A stretch of 11,553 nucleotides of DNA from Desulfobacterales bacterium (GTDB lineage: Bacteria > Desulfobacterota > Desulfobacteria > Desulfobacterales > JAUCGF01): assembly GCA_029940345.1 (NCBI GenBank), contig JAOZRC010000076.1, forward strand, positions 1,608 to 13,160, given 5' to 3'. The notes beneath the pieces were generated by a model. That model searched no databases and had not been told where the DNA came from. It saw only the letters and a list, made by a program, of their open reading frames with translations. Both the position numbers and the translations under genes were made by a program. Below, in pieces: positions 1,024 to 11,539 of this stretch (positions are counted from its first letter, which is position 1; every line of letters starts with the position of its first letter).

Positions 1024-2862
1024 ATGAAAAAAAAAACAGCGTATAACAATCTGAACGACTTTATTAATGAATTGGATAAGGCCGGCGAAGTGCGCTATAT
1101 TGATCAGTTGGTTTCTCCCATTTTGGAAATCAGCAAACGCACTGATTCAGAATCAAAAAGCGCCGGCGGCGGTAAAGCGCTCTATTTTCGCAATGTTATG
1201 GGGTCATCTTTTCCGGTGGCAACCAACCTTTTTGGCAGTCAGCGGCGCATCGGCATAGCGCTCGGTGTGAACAACCTTGATCAACTGAGCGCGCGAATTA
1301 AAACCTACTTTGATTTCAACCCGCCGAAAACGCTAAAGCAGGCATTTAAGATGCTGCCAATGGCTTTTGAAGCCTTCAAATTCTTTCCGCGTTCTTACCG
1401 TAAGGGAACACCGCCTTGCCAGCAAGTGGTTTTAAAAGATGATCAGGTCGATTTGAGCATATTGCCAGTCATTCAATGCTGGCCAAAAGATGCCGGACGG
1501 TTTATAACGCTTCCGCTGGTAATAACGAAAAGCCTGAAAACAGGCAAACACAATATGGGCATGTACCGGATGCAGATTTATGATAAAAACACCACCGGCA
1601 TGCATTGGCATATTCATAAGGACGGAGCGCACTACTTTAACGAATATGTTCAAGCCGGCAAGCGGATGCCGGTTGCAGTGGCAATAGGAGCCGATCCGGC
1701 GACTATATATGCGGCCACGGCCCCGATGCCCCAGGGCCTGGATGAAATCATTATGGCCGGTTTTATACGCAAAAAACCCGTGCGCATGACCAAATGTCTG
1801 ACCATCGAATTGGAAGTTCCCACGGAAGCCGAATTTGTGTTGGAAGGCTATGTAGATCCGCAGGAACACCGGCGCGAAGGCCCTTTCGGCGATCACACAG
1901 GCTATTATTCCCTGGCAGATGATTATCCCGTGTTTCATGTGACCGCTATTACACATCGACGTCATCCGGTTTATATAACCACCCTGGTCGGACGCCCTCC
2001 CATGGAGGATTGTTACCTGGCCAAAGCCACGGAACGCCTGTTTTTACCCATGCTGCAAACGGTTTTTCCAGAAATCGCAGATTACCACTTTCCTTGGGAG
2101 GGTGTGTTTCACAATATTGTTATTGTTGCAATTGATAAAGAATATCCCGGACATGCCCACAAAATCATGAATGGCTTATGGGGACAGGGGCAAATGAGTT
2201 TCTGTAAAACGATTGTAATTGTTGATAAACAGGTCAATCCTCATGATACTCATGCCGTGCTTGATACGCTGCTTACAAAACTCGATATATCTTCAGATAT
2301 AACGATTGCCAAAGGTATTTTGGACGTACTCGACCATGCCTCGCCGTTTCCCAATTTCGGAAGTAAACTTGGAATTGATTTAACTAAACGCTTTAGAAAT
2401 GAATCGCCGCGAATTGAAATAAAACGCGCCCTTACGCGTAAATATCTGTTAAGCCATGATACCGTAAAAAACCTGATTCTTTCAGATGTGCCCGGTGTGT
2501 CAGGCTGCCAACTGATGGCCGAAAAATCAATGGAACAGCAGCCCACCCAAAATGCAATCATGGCTGTTTCCATTGAAAAAAAGCTTAATCGAAGCGGGAA
2601 AGCCTTTGCAACTGATATCTTAAAACTGGACGATCTAAGCGTATACAATATTTTTATCCTCTTTGATAAAACTATTGATCTTGGCGATGCGCCTCTGATG
2701 CTGTGGAAACTGTTTAACAATGTCGATCCGGAGCGGGATATCACGATTCACAATGGACGGGTTGTGATTGATGCCTCAATCAAAGGACCGACAGATGATC
2801 ATTTTAGGGAGTGGCCTGAAGAACTTACATTTGACTTACATACGAATAGTCCGCTATGCTAA
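1024..2862 (+). CDS. ubiD: UbiD-family prFMN-dependent decarboxylase
   Basis: A 612-aa member of the UbiD family, which uses prenylated FMN to (de)carboxylate aromatic or alpha,beta-unsaturated acids. E. coli UbiD acts on 4-hydroxy-3-polyprenylbenzoate in ubiquinone synthesis. The segment NMGMYRMQIYDKNTTGMHWH (177-196) carries the metal and prFMN-phosphate binding signature and the catalytic Arg (R182). EGYVDPQEHRREGPFGDHTGYY follows from residue 274, with E281/E285 and D290, the last matching the E. coli proton-donor Asp. GRPPMED (323-329), GHAHKIMNGLW (376-386) and GSKLGIDLTK (446-455) are also family landmarks. The protein is about 110 residues longer than E. coli UbiD, as in the ~600-aa forms often labelled menaquinone-biosynthesis decarboxylases. 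The substrate cannot be told from sequence. No UbiX (prFMN synthase) gene is nearby. The start has no clear Shine-Dalgarno, but the N-terminus (NNLNDFINELDKAGEV) is typical. The stop overlaps the next gene by 7 nt. Confidence 0.93.
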   Translation: MKKKTAYNNLNDFINELDKAGEVRYIDQLVSPILEISKRTDSESKSAGGGKALYFRNVMGSSFPVATNLFGSQRRIGIALGVNNLDQLSARIKTYFDFNPPKTLKQAFKMLPMAFEAFKFFPRSYRKGTPPCQQVVLKDDQVDLSILPVIQCWPKDAGRFITLPLVITKSLKTGKHNMGMYRMQIYDKNTTGMHWHIHKDGAHYFNEYVQAGKRMPVAVAIGADPATIYAATAPMPQGLDEIIMAGFIRKKPVRMTKCLTIELEVPTEAEFVLEGYVDPQEHRREGPFGDHTGYYSLADDYPVFHVTAITHRRHPVYITTLVGRPPMEDCYLAKATERLFLPMLQTVFPEIADYHFPWEGVFHNIVIVAIDKEYPGHAHKIMNGLWGQGQMSFCKTIVIVDKQVNPHDTHAVLDTLLTKLDISSDITIAKGILDVLDHASPFPNFGSKLGIDLTKRFRNESPRIEIKRALTRKYLLSHDTVKNLILSDVPGVSGCQLMAEKSMEQQPTQNAIMAVSIEKKLNRSGKAFATDILKLDDLSVYNIFILFDKTIDLGDAPLMLWKLFNNVDPERDITIHNGRVVIDASIKGPTDDHFREWPEELTFDLHTNSPLC

Positions 2863-3749
2863 AACCATTATTATCTCCAAAAAACGATTTTGTTTTCAAA
2901 AAGTTGTTTGCATGGGACACTTCCGTCCTGCTGAACCTCATTAATGCCGTTTTACTATCATCAGGCCGCGGCAACATCTGTTCGGTTAAAGTTAAAAATC
3001 CGATTGTGTTGCCTGAAGAGTTAGCCCAGAAATTTATCATCATGGACATTCAGGCTGAAGATGAAAAAAACAATAACTATGATATCGAAATGCAGGTTCA
3101 GAAATTTTCATCATATCCCAGCCGTGCATTATATTACATCAGTAAGTTGTATGCCGGACAAATGGATGCTGGCGATAAATACAGCAGCTTAAAACCGGCT
3201 ATCGGCATTCATTTTCTGGATTACAAAATGTATCCTAAGCAAAACGAATTTCAATTTTGTTTTGAATTTAAGGATTGCCGCTTTCCCAAACTTGAATTAA
3301 CCCATGATTTGGCCTTGCATCTTTTTGAGCTTCCGAAAATTAAACGGATAAATGTGAATCGAAAAGGGCAAGCTGATGATATGATCCAATGGCTTCATTT
3401 TTTCAACAATGCTCACAAGGAGGACGAAACCATGCGAGAACATTATACAAATCCGGCTATTCATCAAGCATTTACATTTTTGGAAGAATTAAGCGCGGAT
3501 GAACTCGAACGCCAACGTGCTGAAATACGTGAAAAAGCCTTAAAAGACGAAGCGACCTTTTTGGATGATGCTAAAAAAGAAGGCTTTGCAGAGGGCATTG
3601 AACAAGGTATTGAACAAGGAGCCGATGCCAAAGCGAGGTCTATGGTGCAAATTCTTTTGGCAATGAAAGTGGCTTCATCAGAACAAATTGCCGAAATTAC
3701 CGGATTGAGTCTCGAAGTGATTGAAGCAATGCAGGCTTCCCAAGCATGA
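2856..3749 (+). CDS. Rpn-family PD-(D/E)XK nuclease / putative transposase
   Basis: A 297-aa protein of the recombination-promoting nuclease (Rpn, TIGR01784; PDDEXK_2) family. These are DNA endonucleases once called transposases; E. coli RpnA stimulates RecA-independent recombination. The start LLSPKNDFVFKKLF is the family N-terminus. The nuclease core shows IIMDIQAE (D64) and YDIEMQVQ (E78, Q80), then SRALYYISKLYAGQ (89-102). The C-terminal third is charged and helical, with the EGxxxGxxxG-type run near 242-255 common in this family, and ends in a small helical segment ITGLSLEVIEAMQ. Its ATG lies inside the last codons of ubiD (7-nt overlap) with no Shine-Dalgarno, so translation is probably coupled to ubiD. 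The gene looks more AT-rich than ubiD, which suggests later arrival. No terminal repeats mark it as an autonomous transposon. Confidence 0.9.
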   Translation: MLKPLLSPKNDFVFKKLFAWDTSVLLNLINAVLLSSGRGNICSVKVKNPIVLPEELAQKFIIMDIQAEDEKNNNYDIEMQVQKFSSYPSRALYYISKLYAGQMDAGDKYSSLKPAIGIHFLDYKMYPKQNEFQFCFEFKDCRFPKLELTHDLALHLFELPKIKRINVNRKGQADDMIQWLHFFNNAHKEDETMREHYTNPAIHQAFTFLEELSADELERQRAEIREKALKDEATFLDDAKKEGFAEGIEQGIEQGADAKARSMVQILLAMKVASSEQIAEITGLSLEVIEAMQASQA

Positions 3750-3777: not shown

Positions 3778-3785
3778 GAAAAAAG
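3778..3785 (+). repeat. Target-site duplication, left copy (GAAAAAAG)
   Basis: The 8-bp GAAAAAAG lies directly outside the left end of the element at 3786-3925. An identical 8-mer (3926-3933) lies directly outside its right end. This is what transposition with an 8-bp staggered cut leaves. The word is A-rich, so chance is less negligible than for a mixed 8-mer, but the exact abutment on both sides is convincing. Confidence 0.7.
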
Positions 3786-3925
3786 GGCATCCTTCATTTT
3801 CCGCTTAACACTTTAAAGGAGTGCTGAACCGAAGGTTTAGCGTTTTACGCTGGTCTTTGCTAAACCTTCGGTTCAGCACTCCCCATGAAAGTGTAAACCA
3901 CTTTTGGGTTATTATGAAGGATGCC
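3786..3925 (-). mobile_element. MITE-like element E1, 140 bp, palindromic, with 8-bp TSD
   Basis: Begins with GGCATCCTTCAT (3786-3797) and ends with its exact inverse ATGAAGGATGCC (3914-3925). Further in, ACACTTT (3808-3814) pairs with AAAGTGT (3888-3894), and the centre is a perfect 24-bp hairpin (separate entry). The element codes for nothing and fills almost the whole gap between the Rpn gene and the FAD gene. Its left 29 bp match the inverse of the right end of E2 (5435-5463) at 27/29 positions. Its right 37 bp (3889-3925) match the inverse of the left end of E2 (5337-5373) at 31/37. E1 and E2 are therefore the same family in opposite orientations; the minus sign here means inverted relative to E2. 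A transposase in trans must have moved it; none with these ends is in the window. Confidence 0.8.
3818..3882. repeat. Perfect 24-bp inverted repeat (hairpin) in E1
   Basis: Positions 3818-3841 are exactly complementary to 3859-3882, leaving a 17-nt loop (3842-3858). The arms begin GGAGTGCTGAACC. No T-tract follows on the + strand, so it is not a standard terminator, although such a stem in mRNA could stall polymerase or protect the 3' end of the upstream message. The core has no counterpart in E2, so it may be a separate palindromic unit carried by, or inserted into, E1. Confidence 0.85.
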
Positions 3926-3933
3926 GAAAAAAG
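3926..3933 (+). repeat. Target-site duplication, right copy (GAAAAAAG)
   Basis: Identical to 3778-3785 and directly adjacent to the right terminus of E1. It sits one base before the ATG at 3935. Removing E1 plus one copy restores a gap of about 37 nt between the Rpn stop and the FAD-protein start. Confidence 0.7.
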
Positions 3934-3934
3934 T

Positions 3935-5335
3935 ATGCAAGAATATGATGTGATTATTGTCGGCGGAGGCCCCGCCGGATTATTCGCCGCTTATTACCTG
4001 TGTGAACATTCCGATCTCAAAGTGCTGCTGATTGAAAAAGGACGCAGCATCGCCCGGCGTAAATGCCCAATGAAAGAGACCCAGGAATGTTTGCAATGCA
4101 AACCGTGCAATATTTTATCCGGCATCGGCGGTGCCGGGCTATTTTCCGACGGCAAGCTGAATTATATCCATCGACTGGGAAAAACCGACCTTACACAATT
4201 TATGCCTATCCCGGATGCTAAAGCGCTGATTGATGAAACCGAGCAGATTTTTAACCGTTTCGGTATGGACGGTGCGGTGTACCCCACGGATATGCAAGCT
4301 GCTCGTGAAATGCGCAAAAAAGCCAAACTGCACGGTATGAATCTGCTTTTGATTAAACAAAAACATTTGGGTAGCGATTGCTTACCTGATCATATCGCAT
4401 CTTTAGGAGATTACATTAAAGCGGGCGGCGTAACGGTTCATACTTCCGAAACGGTTCAGGATATTACCGTTTCAAAGAAAAAAATCACCGGTGTAGCCAC
4501 CGATCAGCGCCAATATGATGCTAAAAATATCATTTTAGCGCCGGGACGGGTGGGCGCCAACTGGGTGGGCCAATTAGCGCGTCGCTATCAGCTCGGACTT
4601 AGCCAACGGGGTATCGAAGTCGGCGTGCGGGTGGAAGTGCATAATGAGATTATGGAGGATCTTTGCAACGTCATTTATGATCCCACATTTTTTATCCAAA
4701 CACCTAAATACGATGACCTGACGCGGACGTTTTGCACCAACCAGGGCGGGTTCGTCACACTCGAAAATTACAAACCGGACAATAACAATGGCTTTGTTTG
4801 TGTCAACGGACACGCCTACCGGCACAAAAAGTCTGAAAATACCAATTTTGCTTTTCTATCAAAAGTTGTTTTAACCGAACCGGTTACGGACAACCAGGCT
4901 TATGGCGAAGCCATCGGCCGGTTGGCCACGCTGATTGGCGGTGGCAAACCGATTTTACAGCGTTTCGGTGATCTCAAACGAGGAAGACGCAGCACCGAAA
5001 ACAGGATTAGCAAAGGCTATATTGAACCTTCTCTTGTTAATGTGGTGTGCGGTGATATTGCCATGGCGCTGCCTGAAAGAATTTTAACCAACATTGTGGA
5101 AGGCCTGGAAAAGTTAAACCTCGTCGTACCCGGGGTTTCCAATGACGAAACGCTTCTGTATGCGCCTGAAATTAAATTTTTCGCCACCCAGGTTGAAACT
5201 GATGGTGATCTTGAAACCGGCATACAAGGACTGTATGTCGCCGGAGACGGCCCCGGCGTTGCCGGAAACATTGTTGCGGCCTCTGCCACAGGATTGATTC
5301 CGGCCAAAGCGATTGTCAGAAAATGCAATCATTAA
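3935..5335 (+). CDS. COG2509-type FAD-dependent oxidoreductase
   Basis: A 466-aa flavoprotein resembling the 'uncharacterized FAD-dependent dehydrogenase' family COG2509. The N-terminal Rossmann motif is DVIIVGGGPAG (residues 5-15), with an acidic strand end at LLIEKG. A cysteine cluster, Cx7Cx2Cx2C (C44, C52, C55, C58), precedes GIGGAGLFSDGKL, a family hallmark. The C-terminus has GLYVAGDGPGVAGNIVAASATG, the second FAD contact. The substrate is unknown; the four cysteines could hold a metal or Fe-S cluster (inference). Start choice: a GTG at 3821 lies inside the E1 hairpin and would add residues encoded by the inverted repeat. ATG 3914 lies in E1's terminal repeat and would add MKDAEKS. ATG 3935 is the first outside the insertion and gives MQEYDVIIV, so it is probably ancestral. 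No start has a well-spaced Shine-Dalgarno. Confidence 0.85.
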   Translation: MQEYDVIIVGGGPAGLFAAYYLCEHSDLKVLLIEKGRSIARRKCPMKETQECLQCKPCNILSGIGGAGLFSDGKLNYIHRLGKTDLTQFMPIPDAKALIDETEQIFNRFGMDGAVYPTDMQAAREMRKKAKLHGMNLLLIKQKHLGSDCLPDHIASLGDYIKAGGVTVHTSETVQDITVSKKKITGVATDQRQYDAKNIILAPGRVGANWVGQLARRYQLGLSQRGIEVGVRVEVHNEIMEDLCNVIYDPTFFIQTPKYDDLTRTFCTNQGGFVTLENYKPDNNNGFVCVNGHAYRHKKSENTNFAFLSKVVLTEPVTDNQAYGEAIGRLATLIGGGKPILQRFGDLKRGRRSTENRISKGYIEPSLVNVVCGDIAMALPERILTNIVEGLEKLNLVVPGVSNDETLLYAPEIKFFATQVETDGDLETGIQGLYVAGDGPGVAGNIVAASATGLIPAKAIVRKCNH

Positions 5336-5336
5336 T

Positions 5337-5463
5337 GGCATCCTTCATATTGACCTAAAATTCGTTTACACGTTATTAACGTAGAACGATTTTGTAAATC
5401 AATCTACGGTTTTCACCTTAATTTATGAACACAAAAAATGTTAACCGGAAAATGAAGGATGCC
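5337..5463 (+). mobile_element. MITE-like element E2, 127 bp, inverted relative to E1
   Basis: Bounded by GGCATCCTTCAT (5337-5348) and ATGAAGGATGCC (5452-5463), starting one base after the FAD gene's stop codon. Its ends are homologous to those of E1 but swapped: 31/37 identities for its left end and 27/29 for its right end against the inverse of E1. The core differs and holds a modest hairpin (CGTAGA 5380-5385 with TCTACG 5403-5408, and GATTT 5388-5392 with AAATC 5396-5400). I see no target-site duplication (TCATTAAT left, GAAATTTG right), so the insertion may be old or have rearranged flanks. It occupies nearly all the space between the FAD gene and the ADH gene. Confidence 0.78.
5350..5379 (+). 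promoter_or_regulatory. Possible outward promoter inside E2
   Basis: TTGACC (5350-5355) and TATTAA (5374-5379) are spaced 18 bp apart and point toward the ADH/hrpA pair. The -35 matches consensus at 5 of 6 bases and the -10 at 4 of 6. If real, the element would supply a promoter to the genes it cuts off from the upstream run. Weak evidence in AT-rich DNA. Confidence 0.25.
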
Positions 5464-5487: not shown

Positions 5488-7329
5488 ATGATGCTTCCGG
5501 AATATTTTGAATTTTCCATGCCCACAAAAGTAATTTACGGTATCGGCGTGCTGGAGAACATTCAAGCCGCTGTTCAGCAATTTGGCAAGCGCCGGGCCAT
5601 ATTGGTAACCGATAAAATCTTGGTGAAAGTCGGACCGGTAGAACTGGTGAAAAATGGCTTTGCCCCAAGTCAGATTAAAATCGTTTGTACGTATACGGAT
5701 GTTCCGCCCAATTCGGATGTTGCGACCGTTTCCGAATGCGCCGCCTTGGCTAAAAAGCACCGATGCGATTTAATCATTGCGCTGGGTGGCGGAAGTGTTA
5801 TTGACACGGCCAAAGCCGCCAATTTGCTTATTGTCAAGGGCGGCAAACTGGCCGATCATTTAGGCGCCTATCTGCTCGGCCGGGATGAAACCCTGCTGCC
5901 GTTCATTGTTATTCCGACAACAGCCGGCACTGGTTCCGAGGTCACCAAAGTGGCTGTGATTGCCGATTTGGAGAATGACGTCAAGCTCCCTTTTGCAGAG
6001 GATCAATTTTTACCCCAAATAGCAATTTTGGACCCTCAAGTCACCCTGACCATGCCCGGCAAACTGACCGCAGCCACCGGTATGGACGCGCTGACCCATG
6101 CCATTGAAGCCTATGTCGATAAAGAGCAGTCGCCGGCCACGGATGCGCTGGCGCTCCATGCGATCCGTTTGATTAGCGCAAATATTATGATGGCCTGCGC
6201 TCATCCCAAAAATTTGCAAGCGCGCGGTGCAATGCTTTGCGGAAGCTTTCTGGCCGGTTTGGCTTTTTCCCATTCCATGGTGGGCATGACGCATGGCATT
6301 GCGCACGCCTTAGGAGGCGTGTATCATATTCCGCACGGATTGGCCAATGCGCTGGTGCTTCCTGAAGTCATGGAATACAATATGGATGCCTGCACTGAAC
6401 GCTATGCCGCTGTTGCCGATGCGTTGGGTGTTAATTTCCCGGAAGTGATCCATCAAAGCCGGAGCATGCTTCAATCGGACCGGCTGCCGGCGATTGCCGA
6501 TAATTTCGGGCCAGCAAAATTTATCAAAACATTGCTGCAAAAACCGACCCTTAAAGCTTACGGCGTTGCTTCCAAAGCGTTGGACAATCTGGTATTTGTC
6601 GATCAGTGGGTTCGTAAACAGGCAGCTCTGGCCGGAATTGACCATATTCGCAATTTGAACCGCAAACTGGCCTTTCTCACCGGCATGCCGCTGAATTTAA
6701 AAGACGCCGGCATTTCCGATAATCTTGACAAACTGGAACAGACGGCGGACACGGCGATGCAAGACGGCGCCATGCTGTACAATCCCCGGGAGCCGCAAAG
6801 AGACGCGGTGGTTCGTATTTTGTATAAACTCTACAACACACAAGTCAAACCGCTGCCGGTTAACGATGAAGACCTTCATCCGCCGGGTGAGCGTGGTAAG
6901 GGCGGAGAGAAGCGCAATATTTTTAAAGACACAGACATGCTCTACGCCGTTTTGTTTGAATTTTACAAACACCTGAAGGATGATCCGTCCATCGGGCCAG
7001 CACTGCATAAATCGAATATGTGCATTCAATTTGTGTATCAGAATCCATCGGCTGTTATCACCATCGACGCCCGCACGGATGAATTGAATATAATTAAAGG
7101 TGAATTTGACGGTACTCCCGATGTTACTATGACGATGGATGCCGATTTTGCCCACAAATTCTGGCACGGTAAGGCCAACCTGGTTTCCGCATTGACGCGG
7201 CGACAGGTGAAGGCTCGGGGCAATGTGCCCCAAACCATGAAACTGCTGCCTATCTTGAAACCCGCTTATGGCCTTTATCCTCGTTTCCTCAAGGAAAACG
7301 GTTTCGGGCACTTAGTGATTGCGGATTGA
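5488..7329 (+). CDS. Iron-containing alcohol dehydrogenase fused to an SCP2 lipid-binding domain
   Basis: A 613-aa two-domain protein. Residues 1 to about 400 are a group III Fe-dependent alcohol dehydrogenase (FucO/AdhB-like), with the NAD motif GGGSVIDTAK (100-109), PTTAGTGSE (143-151) and metal ligands D200 and H204 (GMDALTHAIEAY), H269 (THG) and H283 (PHG). H273 is the conserved nearby His. A linker with a charged, Gly-rich patch (about 460-480) leads to residues 484-607, which resemble an SCP2 sterol-carrier domain: IQFVYQNPSAVITIDA, PDVTMTMDADFAHKFWHGKAN, and a PQTMKLLPIL helix. Free Fe-ADHs are ~385 aa, so the extra 200 residues are a real fusion. I infer NAD(P)-linked oxidation or reduction of an alcohol/aldehyde that is long-chain, acyl or otherwise hydrophobic. 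The start has AAGGAG at 5479-5484; the second ATG (5491) has better spacing (6 nt) than the first (3 nt). It overlaps hrpA by 4 nt. Confidence 0.9.
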   Translation: MMLPEYFEFSMPTKVIYGIGVLENIQAAVQQFGKRRAILVTDKILVKVGPVELVKNGFAPSQIKIVCTYTDVPPNSDVATVSECAALAKKHRCDLIIALGGGSVIDTAKAANLLIVKGGKLADHLGAYLLGRDETLLPFIVIPTTAGTGSEVTKVAVIADLENDVKLPFAEDQFLPQIAILDPQVTLTMPGKLTAATGMDALTHAIEAYVDKEQSPATDALALHAIRLISANIMMACAHPKNLQARGAMLCGSFLAGLAFSHSMVGMTHGIAHALGGVYHIPHGLANALVLPEVMEYNMDACTERYAAVADALGVNFPEVIHQSRSMLQSDRLPAIADNFGPAKFIKTLLQKPTLKAYGVASKALDNLVFVDQWVRKQAALAGIDHIRNLNRKLAFLTGMPLNLKDAGISDNLDKLEQTADTAMQDGAMLYNPREPQRDAVVRILYKLYNTQVKPLPVNDEDLHPPGERGKGGEKRNIFKDTDMLYAVLFEFYKHLKDDPSIGPALHKSNMCIQFVYQNPSAVITIDARTDELNIIKGEFDGTPDVTMTMDADFAHKFWHGKANLVSALTRRQVKARGNVPQTMKLLPILKPAYGLYPRFLKENGFGHLVIAD

Positions 7330-11441: not shown

Positions 11442-11514
11442 CTGAATGCCATTGCTCACTGATGATTAAGAAAATTAAGGCTATCAACGGCGGGACATAT
11501 TCAATTCAGTTGCT

Positions 11515-11539
11515 CGTTACGAGGCTCTGCCTCGTAACG
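11515..11539. repeat. Perfect 11-bp palindrome, GAGGC-type repeat
   Basis: CGTTACGAGGC (11515-11525) is the exact inverse of GCCTCGTAACG (11529-11539) with a 3-nt TCT loop. The sequence CGTTACGAGGCTCTGCCTC matches the inverse of the copy near 865-883 at 18 of 19 positions, so it belongs to the same family as the cluster after the FGE-like gene, in opposite orientation. Between the hrpA stop (11441) and this repeat I see no gene and no convincing terminator. The palindrome has no T-tract inside the window. Confidence 0.75.

Follow-up and report, generated by a model that had tools for sequence, protein, structure and literature searches.

The two short repeats on either side of a flavin adenine dinucleotide (FAD)-dependent oxidoreductase gene in an 11,553-nucleotide stretch of a Desulfobacterales genome (the window; contig JAOZRC010000076.1, assembly GCA_029940345.1) are copies, here E1 and E2, of a real and abundant family of miniature inverted-repeat transposable elements (MITEs) with fixed ends and interchangeable cores, many of them hairpins. 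Very probably, these are non-autonomous elements whose movement depends on a transposase acting in trans through recognition of their two short and asymmetric ends, and this transposase is most likely the DDE protein of approximately 530 residues encoded by an element of Desulfobacterales bacterium HSG2.

E1 (140 bp) and E2 (127 bp) are inverted relative to each other, and both are short, intergenic and gene-free, with 12-bp tips as terminal inverted repeats. Their left ends are identical at 27 of 29 positions (3786-3814 against the inverse of 5435-5463) and their right ends, 3888-3925 and the inverse of 5337-5374, at 32 of 38. The coordinates and left-end match of the first-pass annotation were thus reproduced, and its right-end match of 31/37 is the same one, a base shorter; its view of a single family whose left and right ends can be told apart, present in two orientations, is borne out by these matches. 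E1 lies between perfect 8-bp direct repeats, whereas E2, flanked by tcattaat and gaaatttg, has no target duplication. DNA folding of positions 3778-3925 gave z scores of -9.9 on the plus strand and -12.4 on the minus strand. The parts of the two elements are as follows.

3778..3785, plus strand: left copy of the E1 target site duplication, gaaaaaag, present once in the empty site of a same-genus genome (G001)
3786..3925, plus strand: E1, a MITE copy reading left to right, with 12-bp tips and the subterminal box at offset 18 on the left and 27 on the right
3786..3814, plus strand: E1 left end, the 12-bp tip and subterminal CTTAACACTTT at offset 18
3818..3882, plus strand: E1 core, a 24-bp perfect hairpin by DNA folding, arms 3818-3841 and 3859-3882
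3888..3925, minus strand: E1 right end, the tip followed by AAAAGTGGTTTACACTTT reading inward
3926..3933, plus strand: right-hand copy of the 8-bp E1 duplication, from the sequence, the G001 comparison and the flank test
5337..5463, minus strand: E2, a MITE copy in the opposite orientation without a duplication; its left edge is where homology to G001 ends
5337..5374, plus strand: E2 right end, reading inward on this strand
5435..5463, minus strand: E2 left end

The two ends of the family differ in a fixed way. In the left end the tip, GGCATCCTTCAT, is followed by a GTTTACACTTT box at offset 18, while in the right end the tip is followed by 8-10 variable bases, AAAAGTA and then the box at offset 27, a difference of nine bases, which is near one helical turn. 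This spacing is rigid: in a sample of 180 distinct elements picked for a duplication that was exact or had a single mismatch, the smaller offset being named left, the left box stood at offset 18 in 150 and at 17 in 17 of the 169 readable cases, and of 176 readable right boxes, 157 stood at 27 and 14 at 26. For the duplications we used 241 left-right pairs within 420 bp, taken without selection on the flanks from loci pooled from several searches and two naming systems, identical contexts being counted once. Exact 8-bp duplications were present in 154 of these pairs, 29 had one mismatch and 58 had two or more. When the left flank was shifted by 8, no pair had 0 or 1 mismatch and four had two, and exact flank repeats of 5-7 or 9-11 bp amounted to two cases in total. 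The target letters of the 180 elements were 75% A+T (1086/1440), and insertion into AT-rich DNA would duplicate exactly 8 bp.

The host genome (G000; 6,047,952 bases in 1,024 contigs) has 471 occurrences of the tip, 237 forward and 234 in reverse, whereas the same pattern read backwards gave 1+0 occurrences; the likeness of E1 to E2 is therefore not due to chance. A 156-base query of E1 with its flanks had 92 matches in the host, and among the 40 of 459 candidate places that were scored, at least 28 (E1 included) showed 92-100% identity over at least 127 of the 156 bases and 12 more showed 76-83%. Across 58 genomes surveyed, the tip was present in 45 (host included), at 0-9 copies in most; high counts were found in G036 (272), G025 (237) and G001 (82), followed by G049 (38), G007 (36), G039 (30) and G046 (26), while the reversed control gave no match in nearly all genomes and never more than 4 (G002). 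Of 389 genomes surveyed in the order, 45 (in 26 of 150 genera) carry the bipartite right end, and no match to its reversed control was noticed in the 389-genome table; a few right-end matches, for example in G244, differ in appearance from the others and may be due to chance. A scan with one genome per species returned at least 106 right-end stretches. The 80 matches listed come from Desulfobacterales (including HSG2, HSG8, HSG9 and HSG16), Desulfamplus magnetovallimortis, strain NaphS2, Candidatus Achromatium palustre, Nitrosomonas, Methylococcaceae, Thiotrichaceae and a Campylobacteraceae assembly, so that the right end also occurs in some beta-, gamma- and epsilonproteobacterial assemblies, many of the matching assemblies being metagenome bins in which a stray contig is possible.

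Comparison with G001 bears on the history of both copies. There, the 137 bases that precede E1 and the 1,411 bases that follow it are contiguous with an overlap of 8 nt, an empty site which, with the exact duplication, indicates that, in the lineage of the window, E1 entered the space between the FAD gene and its upstream neighbour. The match to G001 stops at 5336, the last base before E2, and behind the FAD gene G001 carries a helicase gene, presumably RecD2-like, where the window has E2 and a different gene.

3935..5335, plus strand: FAD-dependent oxidoreductase gene, 466 amino acids, ATG at 3935, identified by Pfam and, from element-free relatives, context rather than cargo
5488..7329, plus strand: gene downstream of E2, 613 amino acids, whose product we take to be alcohol-dehydrogenase-like; its closest G001 relative is not on the contig of the FAD gene

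The stretch fetched around the host helicase gene contained no exact tip, and the gene is not preceded there by an FAD gene. We hold with moderate confidence that E2 marks a rearrangement point, its duplication having perhaps been lost through DNA exchange between two copies, which would have given the FAD gene a new neighbour. Point decay or a one-sided deletion is a serious competitor, to which we give somewhat less than an even chance. Decay does occur, since 36 of the 241 pairs show 2-4 flank mismatches, and the reciprocal junction to E2 was looked for and not found, which counts against exchange; on the other hand, homology to G001 ends exactly at the edge 5336/5337 and the next gene differs, whichever of the two orders is ancestral.

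The candidate transposase came from opposite ends up to 9 kb apart in the fetched DNA, among which two long pairs had matching flanks. One is a 533-bp tandem MITE array in HSG2 (L205:1896-2428) with an outer 8-bp duplication, CAAATTTG, which suggests that one element inserted into or beside another. The other, also in HSG2 (L381:4396-6346), is a 1,951-bp element with both ends, flanked on both sides by TGATTTTT, that encodes 375 and 163 amino acids in two frames. Because these resemble consecutive parts of one 533-residue relative, this copy of the gene appears to be frame-broken or misread; neither half scored above an NCBIfam or Pfam cut-off. At a second locus, in Desulfamplus sp. nS315bin3 (L199), inward of the right end lies the C-terminal portion of a protein related to this one, and then unrelated sequence, the gene being truncated. 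The MITEs thus have their ends in common with a transposase-bearing element at L381, with support from L199, the one gene being apparently frame-broken and the other truncated. In two genera the ends are linked to one new protein family, and in each the right end lies behind the gene. The transposase-linked right ends (L381:4396-6346 and L199:3162-3200) both read GTTGACAC, a type found elsewhere in the fetched loci only at L216:7556; we take TTGACA within it, read inward, to be a -35-like word.

Two protein searches returned 675 and at least 1,463 relatives at E <= 0.001 in overlapping sets, the second from the best 7,996 candidates scored, with 120 proteins listed per search. Those in the first list are mostly 515-545 amino acids long and named 'hypothetical protein' or uninformatively, and for about 92 of the 120 (counted by hand) the longest contig is 1.5-3 kb. 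A precomputed PF00872 or PF01610 domain was attached to 11 of the 120. Scanning 51 relatives at E <= 0.01 gave PF01610 in 27 (best 1.1e-7) and PF00872 in 26 (best ~1e-7), together with matches to NF033543 (IS256) in 11 (best 2.7e-4) and to NF033550 (ISL3) in two (best 1.5e-3); P0003, P0004 and P0005 had no IS256 model match. The predicted model and the invariant columns combine a DDE RNase H core, a helical insertion and a C/DxxH motif; the predicted fold has the order D...D...DxxH...E with a large helical insertion, as in the IS256 and hAT families. The protein is likely an IS256-like transposase, not covered in full by any curated model searched, and its conserved residues would be catalytic. 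Distant relatives (~23% identical) on Acaryochloris marina plasmids (L387, L388) are annotated as hypothetical protein, and no ends were recognised there.

In the mechanism that we propose, the transposase would recognise the tip and box at each end and act in trans on gene-free copies, which it may either copy out or cut out. A different transposase (of the ISL3, IS1595 or NF041680 type, or another), with the HSG2 element having merely captured the ends, is an unlikely alternative. Two points do weigh against the HSG2 protein: in the G155 assembly (L145/L191) a right end adjoins an NF041680-type fragment, and nearly any core can fill the place held by the gene in the HSG2 element, so that the gene could be one more core. 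However, among eight MITE-bearing genomes ISL3 (PF01610) was found in three and IS1595 (PF12762) in none, and although NF041680 matches occur in 15 of 45 genomes, paired ends surrounded the gene at none of 30 fetched loci, the search being confined to these families. Capture of the ends also sits poorly with the arrangement common to the two genera.

The first-pass annotation had suggested looking for further copies in the host, for target duplications and for an insertion sequence (IS) with the same ends, and all of these exist. It fared differently in supposing that the FAD gene might be inverted or jointly mobilised. A composite transposon or invertible segment, built from E1 and E2 with this gene as cargo, is very unlikely, even though the copies are inverted, 1,411 bp apart and have matching ends. 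E1 has a duplication of its own, and the outer flanks of the pair, gaaaaaag and gaaatttg, differ at three of eight positions. The FAD protein is present in 17 of 39 relatives (92% identity in G001, 69-78% in 16 others), with no exact tip at the 11 of these loci that were fetched, and in G001 the gene has the same orientation to the upstream flank as in the window. Inversion or joint mobilisation is thus not supported by the assembled sequences. Nor does the bracketing need a special cause, since 235 elements placed at random in 6.05 Mb would give 12.5 neighbouring pairs as close as E1 and E2; it is ordinary at the density of the host. When the first 100 sites of the listing were grouped, they made up 81 elements on 59 contigs; of the 22 gaps between elements of one contig, 10 were <=1,500 bp, a few of which may represent two tips of one element.

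That the common ends are a conserved regulatory site, as the first-pass annotation had allowed, or a transcription terminator rather than a transposon, as the strong hairpins and the intergenic position of E1 and E2 might suggest, is ruled out for the family, to within a negligible chance, by the exact duplications against none in the control, the empty site and the transposase-bearing element. Secondary regulatory effects of the MITEs are possible.

Two further features of the window are recorded here. A gene of the PD-(D/E)XK nuclease family transposase type lies directly upstream of E1 (2856-3749; PF12784, E 9.1e-46), and a second short repeat with words like CTCGTTACGAGGCTC, by eye a different dispersed repeat, occurs near both window ends (~755-890 and 11512-11539).

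Within the fixed ends the cores vary widely. After trimming of 29 and 38 end bases, the 180 cores fell into 54 BLAST-linked clusters, which is an upper bound. When 59 word-distinct representatives were folded against dinucleotide shuffles, 27 had z < -2 and 18 had z < -5. Matches lying over 330 nt from the nearest recognisable tip were found in the fetched DNA for 21 of the 180 cores, several of which belong to one cluster, with some of the matches in another genome; the nine such places viewed include clear stand-alone repeats (L061:675-728, L118:10648-10745 and L040:997-1087). Some cores are therefore dispersed repeats in their own right, which may either have jumped into the element or have been captured by it. 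If movement needs the ends only, the core would be free to change, possibly by exchange. We put just short of even the broader proposal that the ends are a general mini-vehicle which repeatedly takes up resident palindromic repeats as cores and spreads them within genomes and, with the transposase, between distant bacterial classes, the transposase founding its own IS family beside IS256 and hAT, unannotated because its ~2-kb copies land on short contigs. Against this stand the 18 of 59 representatives with z > -1, about one third without a hairpin, and the short cores of the 100-106-bp elements, which may be one decayed core.

These results allow a large group of proteins, most of them unnamed or called 'hypothetical', to be given ends, a structural class and a duplication length, and offer a handle on the repeats that abound in sulfate reducers such as Desulfamplus and in the giant bacterium Achromatium. 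A varying core on fixed ends is also a natural test of which bases a transposase needs, and may be a bacterial counterpart to eukaryotic elements that acquire new interiors.

Several known systems resemble this family in part. ISL3 elements have an 8-bp duplication and GGC-type tips, as here, and PF01610 matches 27 of the 51 transposase relatives, but this domain had no match in five of eight MITE-bearing genomes and the host ISL3 fragment has other ends. That fragment (L060, ~1416-2116) is a broken element of the ISL3 type whose ends resemble GGCTCTCTGGTAATT, and it lies beside or perhaps inside a MITE copy with only one recognisable tip. Like the type II prokaryotic MITEs, in the part of their description consulted (PMC10969869), the elements are short, gene-free, conserved only at the ends and high in copy number; unlike them, they carry many cores on one rigid pair of ends common to several bacterial classes. 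Several cores are similar to the REP/BIME palindromes associated with TnpAREP, as far as the excerpts go (PMC8266576, PMC3116915), and some stand alone in genomes, whereas the palindromes here lie inside DDE-type ends. A further comparison is with IS256. ISCth4 (PDB 6xgx/6xg8) has an RNase H DDE fold with a helical insertion, like the HSG2 protein. The DxxH motif of the HSG2 protein lies 21 residues past the second D, and the residue numbers given for ISCth4 in PMC7780238 yield the same spacing of 21 (D241 to C262). A subterminal TGTAAA in both ends (the GTGTAAAC box) and an AT-rich 8-bp duplication are likewise found in IS256 and in this family. In contrast to IS256, the helical insertion of the HSG2 protein measures ~200 residues against 65, the protein scores below every NCBIfam and Pfam cut-off, and the family has its own tips, with a box whose position differs by nine bases between the two ends.
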